Source: Verrucomicrobiota bacterium (GTDB lineage Bacteria; Verrucomicrobiota; Verrucomicrobiia; Limisphaerales; UBA9464). From it: a DNA stretch of 41,221 nt. The position numbers and the translations under genes were made by a program. Location: positions 1 to 41,221 of the forward strand of contig JAPLUF010000119.1 in NCBI GenBank assembly GCA_026397755.1. The letters run 5' to 3'. Shown here in pieces: positions 4,511 to 13,258 of the stretch (its first letter is position 1; each line of letters starts with the position of its first letter). The notes under the pieces are model-generated. The model saw only the letters and a list, made by a program, of their open reading frames with translations. It made no database searches and was not told where the DNA came from.

Positions 4511-5158
4511 TCAGCGGAGAGCACCGGCCGACGGCGGCGTGAGCAGAATGAACTCGCCACGACGATTCTTGCCCCAGGCGGACTCGTCATGACCGAGCTC
4601 GGACGGCTTGTCTTCGCCGAAGCTGCGGGTCACCACGCGGTCAGCGCCGATGCCCAAAGCAATCAACGCATCACGAGCCGACAGCGCACGCTTCTCGCCC
4701 AGAGAACGATTGTACTCTTCAGTGCCGCGCTCGTCGCAATGACCTTCGATGGCCACCTTGTTGTCGGAGTGGGCCTTGAGGTAGGTCGCCACGGCTTGGA
4801 TGTTCGCCTTGCTGTCCGCCTTCACCACGGACTTGTCGTAGTCGAAATAAACGGTGTTGGCCTTGAAGTGTTCACGGTTGGCCAGCATGCCCTCGATCTC
4901 CTCACGAGAAGGTTGACCATTGGCTCCATCCGGATTGTTGACTCCGGCCACATCAGCGCCGTTGGCACCCGAGCCATCTGTCGTCAGCGGGCGCGCCGGA
5001 GGCAAAATGGGCTGTCCCTTACCCAAGCTCGAAGAGGCTCCAGGAGCTCCCGAATATCCCGGCAGCGGCGTGTAATTCTTCTGCCCCTTCTTACATCCGG
5101 CAGCGAGGGAGAGGATCAGCACGAGGGCGATGGAACCCAATTTGGAGAACGGCTTCAT
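4511..5158 (-). CDS. pal: Peptidoglycan-associated lipoprotein, OmpA domain
   Basis: Lipobox LSLAAGCKK; OmpA domain VYFDYDKSVVKADSKANIQAVATYLKAHSDNKVAIEGHCDERGTEEYNRSLGEKRA. Confidence 0.95.
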   Translation of the reverse strand: MKPFSKLGSIALVLILSLAAGCKKGQKNYTPLPGYSGAPGASSSLGKGQPILPPARPLTTDGSGANGADVAGVNNPDGANGQPSREEIEGMLANREHFKANTVYFDYDKSVVKADSKANIQAVATYLKAHSDNKVAIEGHCDERGTEEYNRSLGEKRALSARDALIALGIGADRVVTRSFGEDKPSELGHDESAWGKNRRGEFILLTPPSAGALR

Positions 5159-5216: not shown

Positions 5217-6374
5217 TCAACGACTCCAACTAGGCTGGGAGCTGCTGCCCGCTACTTGCGCGGTATCTTTGACGTGGCCCGTCGGCCAGTCAAGCAGCGA
5301 CAATTTGCGGGGGCCAAACTTACTGGTCCGACGCACAAAAACCAAGGTCCTGGAATTGGGAGCCCAGGAAGGATCCTCGCCTTCGGTAATGACCTTGGCA
5401 TCGCCGCCGGCTGCTGGAACGATGCAAATATCGAAGTAATCGCCCCGGGAACGGGTGAATGCGATCCACTTGCCGTCCGGGGACCAATCGGGTTCGGTGG
5501 TATTGCGGACTCCGGCGGTGGTGAGACGGCGCATAGCGCCCCCCGAGGCCGAAACAATGTACAATTGCGGAAAACCACTTTCTCGGGATACCACGCACAG
5601 GCTAGATCCATCTGGAGACCAGCATGGAGAGGATTCATCGGCGGCCGTGGTGGTCAATCGACGGGGATTCCCGCCCTCGGCATCGCTCACCCACAAATCA
5701 GGACTCCCCGCCTTGCTGAGGATCATGGCCAATTTGGAGCCATCGGGCGACGGGGCCGGACTAATGTTGGACCCGGAGAACCGCACAAGAGCCTTGCGAC
5801 TGCCGGTGGTTAAATCTTGCGAATAAATATCAGCATTACCGGCCCGGTAGCTGGTATAAACCAAAGACTTACGACCAGGGCGCCACGCCGGAGCCGCGAC
5901 GATATTGCCATCGGCGGTCAATTGAACCGGATTGGCTCCATCGAAGTCGCTCGCATAAACCTCGCTGATCCGTTCTTTCTGAACCTTGAAGACCATCTTG
6001 GTGCGAGAAATTCCCTTCCGACCGGTGATCGCTTGAACGACGTCGTCGGCCAGTGCATGCGCTTGAGCCCGCGGAGAACCCCCAGGATACGAGCGATTGA
6101 ACAACGTGGCATTGTTGTTCACGTCGGCCAGCACTCCCTCCAGCGCCGCACCGGATTTTCCATTCACTGAATACTGCGCCTGGGCGAGGGCAACGAGGTC
6201 GAATCCGGCGACGTACAAGTCGAATTCCAGGACCGTCTTGGCGTCACCAGCGAAACCTGTGACGTGGATGGGCACGGCACGGCTAGTGACGTCACTAACA
6301 ACCACTTCGGCCGCGGAGGCGCTCAGGGAAATTCCCAGAGTGAGGAGGAGGGCGATGAATGAATGACGGAACAT
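5217..6374 (-). CDS. tolB: TolB beta-propeller protein
   Basis: Signal peptide, TolB N-terminal domain, repeated blades (SPDGSKLAM, SPDGSSLCVV, SPDGKWIAFTR); located between pal and tolA-like genes. Confidence 0.94.
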   Translation of the reverse strand: MFRHSFIALLLTLGISLSASAAEVVVSDVTSRAVPIHVTGFAGDAKTVLEFDLYVAGFDLVALAQAQYSVNGKSGAALEGVLADVNNNATLFNRSYPGGSPRAQAHALADDVVQAITGRKGISRTKMVFKVQKERISEVYASDFDGANPVQLTADGNIVAAPAWRPGRKSLVYTSYRAGNADIYSQDLTTGSRKALVRFSGSNISPAPSPDGSKLAMILSKAGSPDLWVSDAEGGNPRRLTTTAADESSPCWSPDGSSLCVVSRESGFPQLYIVSASGGAMRRLTTAGVRNTTEPDWSPDGKWIAFTRSRGDYFDICIVPAAGGDAKVITEGEDPSWAPNSRTLVFVRRTSKFGPRKLSLLDWPTGHVKDTAQVAGSSSQPSWSR

Positions 6375-6416: not shown

Positions 6417-7409
6417 CTAAGCAGGAGAGGCAGCGGAAAGATCAAAGCGTATAGTGATTCGGCGCTCCGAATCGGTCGTACCATCCGGCAGCGGGCGAAG
6501 GTCGCGGTTGCCATCCAGCACCTCGCGAACGGAGTCGTCCAAGGCGCGAATTCCAGAGGGTTTCACCAACTTGAAGGCCGAGACCCGACCGTTGCGTTGA
6601 ACGGTGATTTCCACCTCCACCTCGCCGTGCTCCACGTTGAGGGTCGTGGGTTTCTTCCATCGCAGCTTGTAGAAGGCCATCAAGTAGGATCCGTAAGGCG
6701 CATAGGCAGCCCCTCCCGGCCCGGGCATCTCGAACGAGGTCGACCCCGACAAATTCTTCCCCAGATTCGAAGCGACGCCCCGAACGGCATCGGCGCGGGC
6801 CTGCTGGGCCTTACTCAAAGCCTCTCGGGCCGCCGTCACGCGCGCCTGATGCTCCCGAGCTTCACGCGCATCCTGAGCGGCGGCGACGGCGGCGGCGTTA
6901 TTGCGCTCAACCTCGGCCTCCTTCTTCGAGCGCTTTTTGGGAGCCTCGGCCAGCTGAAAGTCCGTCTTGGAGGACTTCAGTTTCTTGGTGGACAGGTTGG
7001 GATCCACATCCTGGGCATTGGGAGCACTGCGCTGAATCTCGGTGGCCAGGCTCTTCTTGGGCGGCTCCATCTTGGTGGGCTCCTTGGTGGGCTCCACCGC
7101 CTTGGCAGGCTCCGGAGGCGGAGTCTGAGGCTGCGTCTTCGGAGGTTCGGGCTGGGGCGGGGCTGGCGGGGCTGGGGCCGGCGGCGCAGACGGCTGCGGA
7201 CTGGACTTGGGAGGCTGGGCGTCCGGATTGCCACCTCCGAGGGTGTTGCCATCGGTGAGGCGCAGGTTGTCGGGAATAATCTCCAGGATGGGACTCGGAA
7301 CGTCTTGGACTGTGTGCGACGACAAGGCCGGGGCGAACAACAAAACCCCCACGGCCGCGGCATGAATGCCCACGGAGGTCAGAAAATATCGTGTGTTCGA
7401 AGGGATCAT
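6417..7409 (-). CDS. TolA/TonB-like protein (TM helix, Pro/Lys-rich linker, TonB C-terminal domain)
   Basis: N-terminal TM, long P/E/K-rich segment, C-terminal GEVEVEITVQRNGRVSAFKLVKPSGIRALDDSVREVL; start overlaps the tolR stop by 4 nt. Confidence 0.88.
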   Translation of the reverse strand: MIPSNTRYFLTSVGIHAAAVGVLLFAPALSSHTVQDVPSPILEIIPDNLRLTDGNTLGGGNPDAQPPKSSPQPSAPPAPAPPAPPQPEPPKTQPQTPPPEPAKAVEPTKEPTKMEPPKKSLATEIQRSAPNAQDVDPNLSTKKLKSSKTDFQLAEAPKKRSKKEAEVERNNAAAVAAAQDAREAREHQARVTAAREALSKAQQARADAVRGVASNLGKNLSGSTSFEMPGPGGAAYAPYGSYLMAFYKLRWKKPTTLNVEHGEVEVEITVQRNGRVSAFKLVKPSGIRALDDSVREVLDGNRDLRPLPDGTTDSERRITIRFDLSAASPA

Positions 7410-7834
7410 CGCCGCTTGGGGAGCTGGGTTCCGATACGGTAGCGAGTCAGTCCATTGCGACCAGCAATGTCGAGCAGACTCACCAGCACTTGCGACGGCG
7501 CTGAGCCCTCGACCCGGAGCACGAGCACTAAATTCGGATTCTGGCGGTAGGCCTTCACCAACTCTGTCTCCAATTCAAGCTCACTGAGCACCCGGGTTCC
7601 GGTCCGTGCAAACGTATACCGCCCCTCGGCCAGACCATTCACGTTGGCCTCGTTGTTGGTGTCGGGACGGGTGCGAGCATCGCCCCCCACCGGCAGCTTC
7701 ATGCTAATGCCCGGCTCCAAAGCTGGCGTGGTGATGATGAAAATGATCAGCAGCACGAACGCCAAATCCAGCAAGGGGGTGACGTTGATCTCGTTGAGCG
7801 TCACCAGCGAATTGCGTTGGGAAAAACGGCGCAT
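7406..7834 (-). CDS. Biopolymer transport protein TolR/ExbD
   Basis: MRRFSQRNSLVTLNEINVTPLLDLAFVLLIIFIITTPALEPGISMKLPVG; the ORF track start (7924) is too far upstream. M31 (7834) fits and lies 2 nt after the stop of the preceding gene. Confidence 0.93.
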   Translation of the reverse strand: MRRFSQRNSLVTLNEINVTPLLDLAFVLLIIFIITTPALEPGISMKLPVGGDARTRPDTNNEANVNGLAEGRYTFARTGTRVLSELELETELVKAYRQNPNLVLVLRVEGSAPSQVLVSLLDIAGRNGLTRYRIGTQLPKRR

Positions 7835-7836
7835 GA

Positions 7837-8706
7837 TTATTCGAAGATCCGGAAGCCTGAGAATTGGACCAGAATAAAACCGGCCAAGGATAAAAGGAGA
7901 ACCGCAGCCATGACATAAACCCACTTCATCGAAACGTTTTTTGCACCCAGCGGATCCAATCTCTCATTAATAGAGCGGTGGAGCCTTCGGTTGCATTTCA
8001 GACATCGAGGCTCAGAACGCGCATTGGTCGTTTCGCAGTCGCGACAGACGACGAAGAGGTGCCCTCGGCACTGTTCACACCGCTGCAAACCTGCCGGATT
8101 GAGATGGGTGCATTTGGCACAGACCACCGGCTCTGTGGAAACTAGGGAGTGGCCGTGGGACGGATCCGATGAGCCCGAGGATTTCTCCTGAGGACGGGAC
8201 GTTTCATGATGAGGCGTCTTATCCTGGATTTTGCGATGCAACCGGCCACGACAAGAGGCGCAGTGCATCAGCACCCGAGCATTTCGCTTCTGGCACTTCG
8301 GGCAGTCGAGGAAGAGTTCTTCACTACAGCGCTCGCAACGCTCGCGATCGATCGGGTTCAGATGCTCGCACTTGCAGCACAAAGTTCCCTTCCCCATCGG
8401 GCCCGAGGGGGCTTCGTCCCACCGCGAGGAAGCCGAAACCTCTTCCGGCTTAGAACTTAACAACCCTGAAAGCAGCCCTCTCTGGAGGGAATGACCGCAT
8501 TTACGGCATTGCGAGAGAACTCGTTCATTGGTCGCCGAGCAGGCCGAACACCCCACAAAGAGGGGCCTCGAGCAATACTTGCACGACTCCCGATCGGCCG
8601 GATTCAGACGATTACAGTCCGAGCACAAGACTCCTCGTCCCGACTGCGGAATCTCCGAGGTCGGGTGGATCGGGTGGAAGGAGGACTGGGGAACCGGGTC
8701 ACTCAT
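7837..8706 (-). CDS. Membrane protein with three tandem double zinc ribbons and a C-terminal TM helix, between tolQ and tolR
   Basis: 12 CxxC motifs in three repeated modules (CSDC..CKYC..CSAC..CRKC / CCKC..CERC..CPKC..CASC / CAKC..CEQC..CRDC..CLKC) followed by WVYVMAAVLLLSLAGFILVQF. Overlaps the tolQ-like stop by 8 nt. Confidence 0.9.
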   Translation of the reverse strand: MSDPVPQSSFHPIHPTSEIPQSGRGVLCSDCNRLNPADRESCKYCSRPLFVGCSACSATNERVLSQCRKCGHSLQRGLLSGLLSSKPEEVSASSRWDEAPSGPMGKGTLCCKCEHLNPIDRERCERCSEELFLDCPKCQKRNARVLMHCASCRGRLHRKIQDKTPHHETSRPQEKSSGSSDPSHGHSLVSTEPVVCAKCTHLNPAGLQRCEQCRGHLFVVCRDCETTNARSEPRCLKCNRRLHRSINERLDPLGAKNVSMKWVYVMAAVLLLSLAGFILVQFSGFRIFE

Positions 8707-9421
8707 CGTCGGGCAAGAACTCGGTCTCCATTTTGGAAGCTAGAGTCTGGGCGAAATTATCCAACTCCACGGTCAACACTCGCAGTGTGTGAACCAAATA
8801 ATTGTATCCGAACATCGAAGGGATGGCCACGAGGAGCCCCGCAACGGTGGTCACCAATGCGGCGGATACGCCGGGCGCCATTGCCGTCAAATCGGCGCGG
8901 CCCGCCTTCGCGATGCCTCCGAAGGTGTCCATGACACCCCAGACTGTGCCCAATAACCCCATGAATGGACCACCGCTGACAGCGATGGCCAAGAGGATCA
9001 GGCCTGATTCCAGACGCAGCGACTCACGGGCCACCGCACCCTCCACCTGCCGTTTGACATGCTCGATGCTCTTGATCGACAGACGGGTCCGCCTCGAGCC
9101 ATCGGTCAGGCGCAGCCGGGCTTCGAGATCGGTGCATCCGTCCGTATACACAGAAAACATGGGGCACCCCTCGACGGGCAGCCGACGATCGAAAATACCC
9201 AACACCCCCTCCTGCTGGCGAAATTCAGTCTCAAAAAAACCGTTGTACTTAGCGGCCCGCCGCATTTGGAAGAACTTCTGAATCATCATCGACCAAGCCC
9301 CGATCGAGAGGATGCCCAGAATGAAGATAATCACCTTGGCCTCGGGCGTGGCTTTGTTCCAGATGAAGCCGAGGTCGGTGCCACTCTGAGCGGCGGCGAG
9401 AATCCCGAGTGAAATGGTCAT
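8699..9421 (-). CDS. MotA/TolQ/ExbB proton channel family protein
   Basis: Three TM helices; GPFMGLLGTVWGVMDTFGGIAKAGRADLTAMAPGVSAALVTTVAGLLVAIPSMFGYNYL. Likely start is the internal MTISLGIL at 9421 rather than 9487. Confidence 0.94.
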   Translation of the reverse strand: MTISLGILAAAQSGTDLGFIWNKATPEAKVIIFILGILSIGAWSMMIQKFFQMRRAAKYNGFFETEFRQQEGVLGIFDRRLPVEGCPMFSVYTDGCTDLEARLRLTDGSRRTRLSIKSIEHVKRQVEGAVARESLRLESGLILLAIAVSGGPFMGLLGTVWGVMDTFGGIAKAGRADLTAMAPGVSAALVTTVAGLLVAIPSMFGYNYLVHTLRVLTVELDNFAQTLASKMETEFLPDDE

Positions 9422-9598: not shown

Positions 9599-12500
9599 TC
9601 ATTCCTCCAAAAGGAATCGGAAATCCGACAGGGTCAGGGCCTGCGCAAAGCTTTCCTCTCCCAGAATATCCTTTGCGATGGCTCCTTTGCGCCGCTGAAG
9701 TTCACGAATCTTCTCCTCGATGGTCCCTTTAGCGATCAGTCGATACGCGAAAACAGTCTGTCGTTGACCGATTCGGTGGGTCCGGTCGATGGCCTGAGCC
9801 TCGACAGCCGGATTCCACCAGGGATCGAAGAGGACCACGTAACTGGCCGCCGTGAGATTCAAGCCGAAGCCTCCCGCCTTCAGACTAATGAGAAAAACAC
9901 CGTGACCGGCATGGGATTGGAAGGATGCCACCAGGGTCCCGCGATCCTCAGTTTTCCCCGTTAGCTTGAAGACCGGCCAACCCTGTGACTTAAAGCAGTC
10001 TTCCAGAATCTCCAACACGCCCGTGAACTGTGAGAAAACTAAGACTTTTTGTCCCTCTTGCATTAGGGGTTCGATCAATTCAACCAATGCAGCTACTTTG
10101 GCACTCTCAATGCCGGGAGTCTCAACCCTTGGCTCCGACGTTGAAGAATTGTTTGATAATCCCACCAGTCTGGGATGACAACAGATCTGCCTCAACCGCA
10201 GGAGGCTGGTCAAGAGGTGGAATCGCAATTGATCCAACTGCCCCTGGTCGTTGGCCTTGAGCAATGCAGCACGAGCCCTCTTTAATTCTGCCCGGTAAAG
10301 CACCGCCTGGTCCCCTTCCAACTCGACGATCAGGTCCTCTTCGATCCGATCTGGCAATTCCCGGGCTACCTCCTTTTTGGTTCTCCTGAGTACGAAAGGT
10401 CTTGTCCGGGCAGCCAATCTCCGGCGGGCCTCAGTATCCTCCTTGGCGTCAAACTGCCGAATGAACTGGGAACGAGTCCCCAGAATTCCCGGCATTGCGA
10501 AGGCGAAAATCGACCATAGGTCCAGCAACCGATTCTCGATGGGCGTGCCGCTGAGGGCCACCCGGTGGCGGGCTTTGAGCGCACACGCCGCCCGGGCGGT
10601 TTGGGACGAGGGATTCTTGATGGCCTGAGCTTCATCGAGAATCACGGCGCCCCAGTAAATTCGTCTGAGGGGCTCCTCCTGGGATCGAAGCTGGGAATAG
10701 CCGATGACATGGAGATCCACAGCCTCATCCATCGACATCGCCTCGACATCGCCCCCGCGCCATACCTTGACCCGGAGACTCGGCAGGAACCGGGATACCT
10801 CGATGCTCCAGTTTTCCTGGACCGATTTCGGGCAGACCACGAGTATCTTCTCGGTCATTCCCTGGACCGAACGCAGCCAGGCAATCCAACTCAAGGTCTG
10901 GAGTGTCTTCCCTAGTCCCATGTCATCGGCGAGGATCCCTCCGAATCCATTCACACTCAGGTAAGACAAGAACTGAAAGCCCTCCACCTGATAGGGCCTA
11001 AGGGTGGCTTGGATCTCCGTTGGAACCCCGGGTTGGACCACGGTCTGGATTCGGTCGAGACGATTGCGGATTTGATCCACCTGATCTTCTCGGACCAGCG
11101 ATTGATCTGGACCAGCCAAATGAGCCAACTGGAGGGCATGGAACCGCTGTTTTCCAGTGGCGATCTGTGAGCGGCCGATGCCGAGGTCGGCAAGAGCTTT
11201 CTCCTCGGCCTCACTGAGACCAAACTCCAACCGACGCCAACCCCGGTCCTCCAGACGTACCCATTTTCCAGAGGATTTCATGAGCAAGGACAACTCTTCT
11301 TTCGACAAGGTTTGGTCCGTCACGCTCACCACGGTGGACAAGTCGAACCAATCCATTCCGGAATCGGACTCTTCCAAACGGACCTCCAAGCGCCCAACTA
11401 CTGTCCCCTCTCGCAACGAGGCCAACTCGGCGTCGAGGTGCCACTGAATCCCTTCAGGCGCGCTGCTCAACCAGTCCACGATCCCATCCGGCCAGAGTCG
11501 TACTGGCACTTTTCGGATGACCCATGAATCCAAGCGAACCCGAGCTACGTCGGGCAACACCACCATGAGCCGCCTGAGCCAGTGTTCCAATCGCCTGAGG
11601 GGTGCCTGGTCGACTTGAACCAACGAACCTTCTGACAACTTCGCCTCTTTCTTGACCGACGTGAGCGGATTCCAACGAACCCCGTCCCATATAATCGATT
11701 CTGCCTCATCACCAAAGCTCACCGTCGCTTGAAGCTTCAGCGTCATCGATGCGCCCGTCGTGTCTTGGAAAATTCCCGCTTCGATGCTCACCTGCGGTTG
11801 TACCTGACGAACTTGGTGCCGGATCCGCTTGGGCGCAGGGAGCTCTAGTAACCCCAGCGCCTCCATGCCCCGGTTGGACTCGATCACCGGCGCCGGTATT
11901 CGTATGGGCCAACCGTCACTCTGGCCACGTAAAGGCCAGTTAGGAATCCGATAGAGACAACGGGATGTCAGGTAGCGCAAGTCTCCTTCGTCCAAGATTG
12001 CAACGGGCTTCGGAACCAACTGACCCTCGGGGGTCCGCAAACTGAGCAAGTAATCCCCATCACTGGTTTCGGGCTCTTCGAGGTTCCAGACCAGCATCGC
12101 GTCCGGTTCGACGATGGGATGGCCATCGGGCGAAACAACATGGACACGGCTCAACTCCGGAGAGCAAAACAAGCGAATCAGAGCAACTGTCAACGACTTG
12201 CTCATGCAGGGGATTACGGAATCGAAACTGCCGGAAAAATGATGCTCAAAGGCTTCACAGACGATCTCCGAACCAAAACTCATCCGGAGTCCATCGCGGG
12301 ACCTCGCTACTGATCGGCGCTGCAGTGTCTTAAGCACCTTTTGCGTAGGTCGGGTGAACTCCGATCCGGGAGTGTTACGAATCTGGAGGAACACCGCGTT
12401 TTCCCCGAGCATCAGACGCAGTTCTGGGGGAGTCTCTATCGCGACCTGAGTGGTTAACTTCCAGTCTGTGAGTTTATCGTCCCAGAGTTGAATCTGCTTG

Positions 12501-13258
12501 GCCCGTTCCCATAGCCGCCGCGACTCATTCAGCAGGACTGGATCCAACAACGGTGAAAACACGGCAGCCAAAGCCTCAGATTCGCAACTGAACTGGAGCA
12601 GGAGGAAACCCATGTATTCCCCGACATTGGACGGTGGAAACCTCGCAGGAAAAACTGGTGCCAATCTGTATTCGTAGTCCTGCAGATCGGCCACATAAGA
12701 GCGGGATCCACTTTTTTTTGGAATCAGCTTGATTAAGTTTAAAAGAGGCACCCTTTGGAGCCGTCCCTGCCACCAACCCTCCAAGATTGGAAGCATCCCA
12801 TGAATCACTGGAGGAATAACTCCACCAAGTCGAAGGCTCACCCAGCCGCCCAGAGTCGAGGGATCTGAGTCAATGACTGGGATACCCTGAGCGGCTCTCT
12901 GGGCAGGGAGCTCTTGAACACTCTCGGGTTGTCCGAGCAACTCCATCAGGAATGCCACCCCGTGCTGGCATCCCAGCGAAAAACACCCCCCTGTGCAGAG
13001 CACTTCAAATTGGTTTTCCCCGGAAAGGGGCACCAATCGCACGTGGTAGGTCTTGGGGCGCTTGCCAACGTTGACCTCCGCCTCAATCTCGCCGCCGCCC
13101 AGGCACACATGCAACCCGCTCACGGCTCCAGCTTGATACAAATCGAGTCCATCATAGTAACCCTCCGGAATAAAAACCGCCAACTCATCGAGATACGCCT
13201 CGATCGGTTGACGCAACAACTCCAAGGCTTCGAAAATGGATTGGCTCAAGCTCCACAA
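9599..13258 (-). CDS. SNF2/HepA-family helicase with N-terminal degenerate SWIM-like zinc motif
   Basis: 1219 aa; ILADDMGLGKTLQTL, VILDEAQAIKN, LSGTPIENRLLDLWSIFAFAMPGILG, VLVFSQFT, LISLKAGGFGLNLTAASYVVLFDPWWNPAVEAQAIDRTHRIGQ; N-terminal CTGGCFSLGCQH. Confidence 0.96.
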   Translation of the reverse strand: MWSLSQSIFEALELLRQPIEAYLDELAVFIPEGYYDGLDLYQAGAVSGLHVCLGGGEIEAEVNVGKRPKTYHVRLVPLSGENQFEVLCTGGCFSLGCQHGVAFLMELLGQPESVQELPAQRAAQGIPVIDSDPSTLGGWVSLRLGGVIPPVIHGMLPILEGWWQGRLQRVPLLNLIKLIPKKSGSRSYVADLQDYEYRLAPVFPARFPPSNVGEYMGFLLLQFSCESEALAAVFSPLLDPVLLNESRRLWERAKQIQLWDDKLTDWKLTTQVAIETPPELRLMLGENAVFLQIRNTPGSEFTRPTQKVLKTLQRRSVARSRDGLRMSFGSEIVCEAFEHHFSGSFDSVIPCMSKSLTVALIRLFCSPELSRVHVVSPDGHPIVEPDAMLVWNLEEPETSDGDYLLSLRTPEGQLVPKPVAILDEGDLRYLTSRCLYRIPNWPLRGQSDGWPIRIPAPVIESNRGMEALGLLELPAPKRIRHQVRQVQPQVSIEAGIFQDTTGASMTLKLQATVSFGDEAESIIWDGVRWNPLTSVKKEAKLSEGSLVQVDQAPLRRLEHWLRRLMVVLPDVARVRLDSWVIRKVPVRLWPDGIVDWLSSAPEGIQWHLDAELASLREGTVVGRLEVRLEESDSGMDWFDLSTVVSVTDQTLSKEELSLLMKSSGKWVRLEDRGWRRLEFGLSEAEEKALADLGIGRSQIATGKQRFHALQLAHLAGPDQSLVREDQVDQIRNRLDRIQTVVQPGVPTEIQATLRPYQVEGFQFLSYLSVNGFGGILADDMGLGKTLQTLSWIAWLRSVQGMTEKILVVCPKSVQENWSIEVSRFLPSLRVKVWRGGDVEAMSMDEAVDLHVIGYSQLRSQEEPLRRIYWGAVILDEAQAIKNPSSQTARAACALKARHRVALSGTPIENRLLDLWSIFAFAMPGILGTRSQFIRQFDAKEDTEARRRLAARTRPFVLRRTKKEVARELPDRIEEDLIVELEGDQAVLYRAELKRARAALLKANDQGQLDQLRFHLLTSLLRLRQICCHPRLVGLSNNSSTSEPRVETPGIESAKVAALVELIEPLMQEGQKVLVFSQFTGVLEILEDCFKSQGWPVFKLTGKTEDRGTLVASFQSHAGHGVFLISLKAGGFGLNLTAASYVVLFDPWWNPAVEAQAIDRTHRIGQRQTVFAYRLIAKGTIEEKIRELQRRKGAIAKDILGEESFAQALTLSDFRFLLEE

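Follow-up and report, generated by a model that had tools for sequence, protein, structure and literature searches.

A tail-anchored double-zinc-ribbon gene between tolQ and tolR in one order of Verrucomicrobiota, a candidate accessory of the Tol-Pal system

A zinc-ribbon gene within a Tol-Pal operon

The window analysed here, a 41,221-nucleotide stretch of DNA from a Verrucomicrobiota bacterium taken at its full length, carries an intact Tol-Pal operon in the order tolQ-[DZR]-tolR-tolA-tolB-pal, in which DZR denotes a gene encoding double zinc ribbons. All genes of the operon lie on the minus strand and have matching domains: tolQ of the MotA/TolQ/ExbB family (8699..9421, with the ATG at 9421 taken as start; MotA_ExbB, 5e-29), tolR of the ExbD/TolR family (7406..7834; ExbD, 2e-17), a tolA-like gene with a TonB C-terminal domain (6417..7409; TonB_2, 1e-11), tolB with the PD40 repeats of a beta-propeller (5217..6374), and pal with an OmpA domain (4511..5158; OmpA, 2e-18). 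The window thus shares its five core genes, their order and their domains with the known tolQ-tolR-tolA-tolB-pal operon, and differs from it by the additional gene between tolQ and tolR. TolQ and TolR score below the cutoffs of the corresponding NCBIfam equivalogs (145.8 bits vs 221 for TIGR02796, and 57.7 vs 127.3 for TIGR02801, respectively). Since these models are still the top-scoring ones for each protein, we regard both as divergent members of their families.

The additional gene (7837..8706, minus strand) encodes a 289-aa protein that carries three double zinc ribbons and a single C-terminal transmembrane (TM) helix, hereafter referred to as DZR-TM. An open reading frame had been claimed at this position by a sequence-only reading, which left its strand unstated; the frame is present and runs from 8706 down to 7837. 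The junctions with its neighbors are as that reading described them. The start at 8706 and the end of tolQ at 8699 overlap by 8 nt (8699..8706, minus strand), and the stop codon (7839-7837) is separated by 2 nt from the tolR ATG at 7834.

An SNF2 helicase gene (9599-13258, minus strand) is located upstream of tolQ. A link between this helicase and the zinc-ribbon gene was considered and dropped, as among the relatives a helicase lies upstream of tolQ at a single locus (L063).

In E. coli, the accessory genes of the Tol-Pal system are ybgC and the terminal cpoB, and the gene order of the system is highly conserved, as described in the part of PMC7391070 devoted to it; that part mentions no gene inside the tolQ-tolR interval. 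Likewise, no report of a zinc-ribbon gene in this slot was found in the portions of the literature searched.

Zinc-ribbon modules and membrane topology

The protein contains three modules of ~47-50 aa, all encoded on the minus strand: module 1 (C28-C70; 8497..8625) and module 2 (C110-C152; 8251..8379), which are distal, and module 3 (C196-C238; 7993..8121), the membrane-proximal core module. Each carries four CxxC pairs, in agreement with the earlier count of 12, whereas composition-shuffled versions of the protein averaged 2.06 and never exceeded 8 over 20,000 trials. The 24 module cysteines would form six predicted zinc sites. The protein passes Pfam DZR PF12773 (39.8 bits vs a gathering cutoff of 27.3, E 5e-10) over three stretches and shares the CxxC...CxxC...CxxC...CxxC pattern of that family; here, the modules form tandem arrays of 1-8 followed by one C-terminal TM. 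DZANK1 and the Ser/Thr phosphatase PRK14559, which were the annotated DZR proteins matched, are otherwise unrelated to the window protein. AlphaFold2 modelled the modules as ordered (pLDDT ~80-96, with module 1 at ~80-86), the linkers as disordered and a helix at the C-terminus.

The cysteines are strictly retained among homologues, with 8 of 8 invariant across 29 one-module proteins and 24 of 24 across 15 three-module proteins. Such invariant CxxC pairs could also belong to a sensor in the cytosol that responds to zinc or to thiol redox state and acts upon the Tol motor. However, their spacing fits the structural zinc ribbons of Pfam DZR, and nothing else in the analysis points to sensing. 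Structural zinc ribbons usually retain zinc stably, and we give a sensor hardly any credence.

A Foldseek search of the PDB with the whole model returned no match at E<=0.001 and generic zinc knuckles only. Half-modules matched L40e, RanBP2 and NZF fingers (0.3-1.2 A over 24-28 residues), with which they share the C-x2-C-x10-C-x2-C spacing and a central Asn, and superposed on them at ~1 A or better. Unlike RanBP2/NZF fingers, they have no Trp before the first Cys, and the window protein scores 15.4 bits against RanBP2 PF00641, below the gathering cutoff of 27. Some knuckles of the RanBP2/NZF/L40e type bind RNA, and the core module has a mean net charge of +3.3, two features that would suit a membrane-tethered binder of nucleic acids or ribosomes. 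In contrast, the distal modules have a mean charge of 0, with acidic values (-3, -4) for several of them, while the structural matches extend to the generic knuckle only and the RanBP2 model stays under its cutoff. Because the distal modules are neutral on average and the core is basic, nucleic-acid binding is disfavored as a general role and seems to us highly improbable.

The single C-terminal TM helix claimed earlier was found at residues 262-280 (7867..7923, minus strand), followed by a short tail (residues 281-289; 7840..7866, minus strand) that is predicted to be periplasmic. The helix lies C-terminal to the ribbons in 58 of 60 distinct homologues, with a tail of 9 residues in the median. 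In related genera, the tail terminates in LPRLW; the TM of f1-clade members is often flanked by a [V/L]NLLYFG motif at its entry and by LPRLW at its exit. Counted over 15 residues, the net charge averages +3.6 ahead of the TM, towards the ribbons, and +0.7 behind it, towards the tail. Based on the positive-inside rule and this asymmetry, the ribbons are predicted to be cytoplasmic, which supports, as a prediction, the topology proposed by the sequence-only reading. TcaA-type zinc-ribbon membrane proteins (NF053815) have the same succession of zinc ribbon and TM, and one homologue matched this model partially (E 0.003), far under the family cutoff. However, the short tails of the DZR-TM homologues leave them without the extracytoplasmic domain of that type.

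Occupancy of the tolQ-tolR slot

According to named records, the host order is the Pedosphaera/Limisphaera group (Limisphaerales), subdivision 3 of Verrucomicrobiota. We searched 156 genomes of this order twice and established linkage to tolQ by pairing the coordinates of both searches; the tolQ-tolR neighborhoods of relatives were collected and the DNA between both genes was read systematically. A homologue lies directly downstream of tolQ in 41 of the 138 tolQ-bearing genomes, in 16 families. DZR-TM occupies the slot in every genome of the window genus from which a tolQ-tolR pair was recovered, one of these copies (G008/L075) being decayed. It is also there in most genera of the window's family and in many other families. 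Almost all gene-bearing loci that were fetched far enough show tolA, tolB and pal next. Conversely, the gene is missing from approximately 70% of the tolQR loci of the order, among them those of two genera in the window's family, which indicates that Tol can function without it. Most of these genomes, and all named records bearing the gene, are metagenome assemblies, and faults of assembly may account for part of the absences and for the decayed copy. The decayed homologue (L075/L044 in G008) has one in-frame TGA and has lost several cysteines, consistent with recent decay or a sequencing error.

A sample of the phylum, 145 genomes in addition to that of the window, yielded weak generic zinc-ribbon matches only. 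Within 7 kb inspected for the strongest of them (G062), neither tolQ nor tolR is present; the remaining matches are weaker still and mostly lie inside much longer ORFs. A phylum-wide distribution was therefore rejected. Conservation of the gene in this slot, which had been proposed as specific to the lineage, stands within one order and does not extend to Verrucomicrobiota at large.

The junction with tolQ is also conserved: among 47 distinct homologues, 27 overlap tolQ by 8 nt and 7 by 4 nt, and the DZR stop lies no further than ~40 nt from the start of the tolR domain except in two cases where a second DZR-TM gene comes next. This placement exactly between two stator-subunit genes, overlapping tolQ and stopping near tolR, is what an assembly factor or translational spacer would show, in which the protein or its coupled translation chiefly tunes the assembly or stoichiometry of TolQ and TolR. 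Yet a spacer needs neither invariant cysteines nor up to eight modules, and relatives in which tolQ and tolR are coupled directly manage without the gene; we judge such a role improbable.

Module number and the membrane-proximal core

The sequence-only reading took the triple array as the defining state. This does not hold across the family: a single module is the commonest state, found in the majority of homologues, and arrays reach up to 8 modules. Three modules occur in the window genus and in another genus (G035/G330). The longest array, eight double zinc ribbons with 32 CxxC in a protein of 595 aa, occupies the tolQ-tolR slot of L147 (G029:C85). Within the window genus itself, G016 has one module only, which corresponds to module 3.

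In multi-module proteins, the last module is nearest to those of single-module homologues. Its similarity to single modules is 0.40 for module 3 of L049 and 0.37 for module 8 of G029, compared to 0.19-0.32 for the other modules of both proteins; the modules of the window genus differ little in this respect (0.32 for module 3 vs 0.26 and 0.31). Variation follows the same layout, with pN/pS of 0.03-0.10 in module 3 and 0.04-0.14 in the TM and tail, 0.14-0.31 in modules 1-2 and 0.30-0.98 in the linkers. We take the module and TM next to the membrane to be the constrained core of the protein and the distal modules to be its variable part, the additional modules having arisen by repeat expansion.

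Evolutionary history and selection

A TolQ+TolR tree built from 132 loci requires 14 changes to explain where the gene is present, compared to ~43 with shuffled labels. As presence is spread through the order, one old insertion followed by many losses is the simplest reading; several independent gains are possible instead, the support of this quick tree being modest. The losses include the two genera of the window's family mentioned above, where tolQ and tolR are separated by 32-111 nt. In the DZR tree, which has few columns and is weakly resolved, most of the f1 family forms one clade of linked copies, and linked and unlinked copies are mixed elsewhere.

The dN/dS of the DZR gene ranges from 0.07 to 0.28, mostly several-fold above the values of 0-0.13 that the same pairs gave for tolQ and tolR. 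Recurrence in 16 families together with these values argues against a chance insertion or a pseudogene, which we rejected; the one relative with a decayed-looking copy is L075/G008. Absence from close relatives and lack of purifying selection were findings that would have spoken against the original reading, and neither was obtained.

Roughly a dozen genomes also have DZR-TM paralogues that are not linked to tol, and four genomes have unlinked copies only. No recurrent neighbors of these paralogues were found: nearby genes include arginine biosynthesis genes, a pilin-like gene, an M48 peptidase and a HAD hydrolase, and ExbB/ExbD were not found adjoining them. Their neighbors being unrelated, the unlinked paralogues were rejected as a source of functional hints. 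Two of them (L262 in G214 and L270 in G039) are located beside or near an SNF2 helicase gene.

These paralogues suggest another explanation, namely that the gene is an operon passenger, a member of an order-wide DZR-TM family with an inner-membrane function of its own that is expressed with tol and makes no contact with the Tol motor. Absence from ~70% of the loci, the paralogues and a selection looser than on tolQR make this a strong rival. Its patchy presence and the unrelated ORFs in the slot of relatives without DZR also speak for it. Such ORFs were found at L157 (G044), L170 (G057) and L140 (Nitrospira moscoviensis), and resemble by eye the four-helix-bundle proteins of 23S rRNA intervening sequences. 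However, these inserts are sporadic and the DZR gene is not: the tolQ-tolR slot is the sole recurrent neighborhood found for the family, and the linkage is kept across 16 families, usually with an overlap of tolQ. We consider a passenger a real possibility, if a doubtful one. Even so, it would represent a family of zinc-ribbon membrane proteins that is undescribed and specific to the order.

A possible role at the TolQR motor

Given its slot between motor genes, the selection acting on it and its 1-8 modules, the gene may be an unrecognized part or regulator of Tol-Pal. Its absence from most loci, the repeated losses and the unlinked paralogues without a common neighborhood indicate an accessory rather than a core part. 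Since tolQ-tolR is the only recurrent neighborhood, the most economical reading is a cytosolic, tail-anchored docking factor of TolQR. We therefore tentatively favor, at somewhat less than an even chance, a C-tail-anchored inner-membrane protein with cytoplasmic ribbons that serves as an accessory component within the Tol-Pal operon of a single verrucomicrobial order; from the sequences, a role as a Tol motor accessory is plausible.

In such a mechanism, the DZR protein would be produced together with TolQ and TolR and would use its TM and short tail to sit next to the TolQ pentamer. The membrane-proximal double ribbon would offer a zinc-stabilized protein-docking surface that could regulate the motor or connect it with a partner in the cytosol, such as a division-site protein, and distal modules would give this dock extra reach or valency. 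A bolder version, which we think unlikely, would make the protein a sixth, lineage-specific inner-membrane subunit of Tol-Pal, a zinc-ribbon array of evolvable length docked on TolQR as a motor clutch or cytosolic tether. A comparison of DZR presence with residue positions in TolQ and TolR had no power, as only ~3-6 supported independent pairs were available.

The activation of Ton/Tol motors is described as poorly understood in the relevant part of a 2026 review (PMC12905483). A conserved cytoplasm-facing gene between two stator genes is a concrete candidate through which such a motor might be controlled from the cytosol, and natural variants with 1, 3 and 8 modules as well as natural losses are available for comparison.

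Other arrangements of the slot were also observed. A TonB-like ORF separates the TolQ-like from the TolR-like gene at a distant locus (L128), and the tolQ-tolR gap of L055/L174 (G040) and L088 contains apparent short dispersed repeats, with translated SVSICG and FGTWNLELLW motifs. Finally, two tandem, divergent DZR-TM genes share the slot at L090, L100 and the G255 locus (L206/L285).
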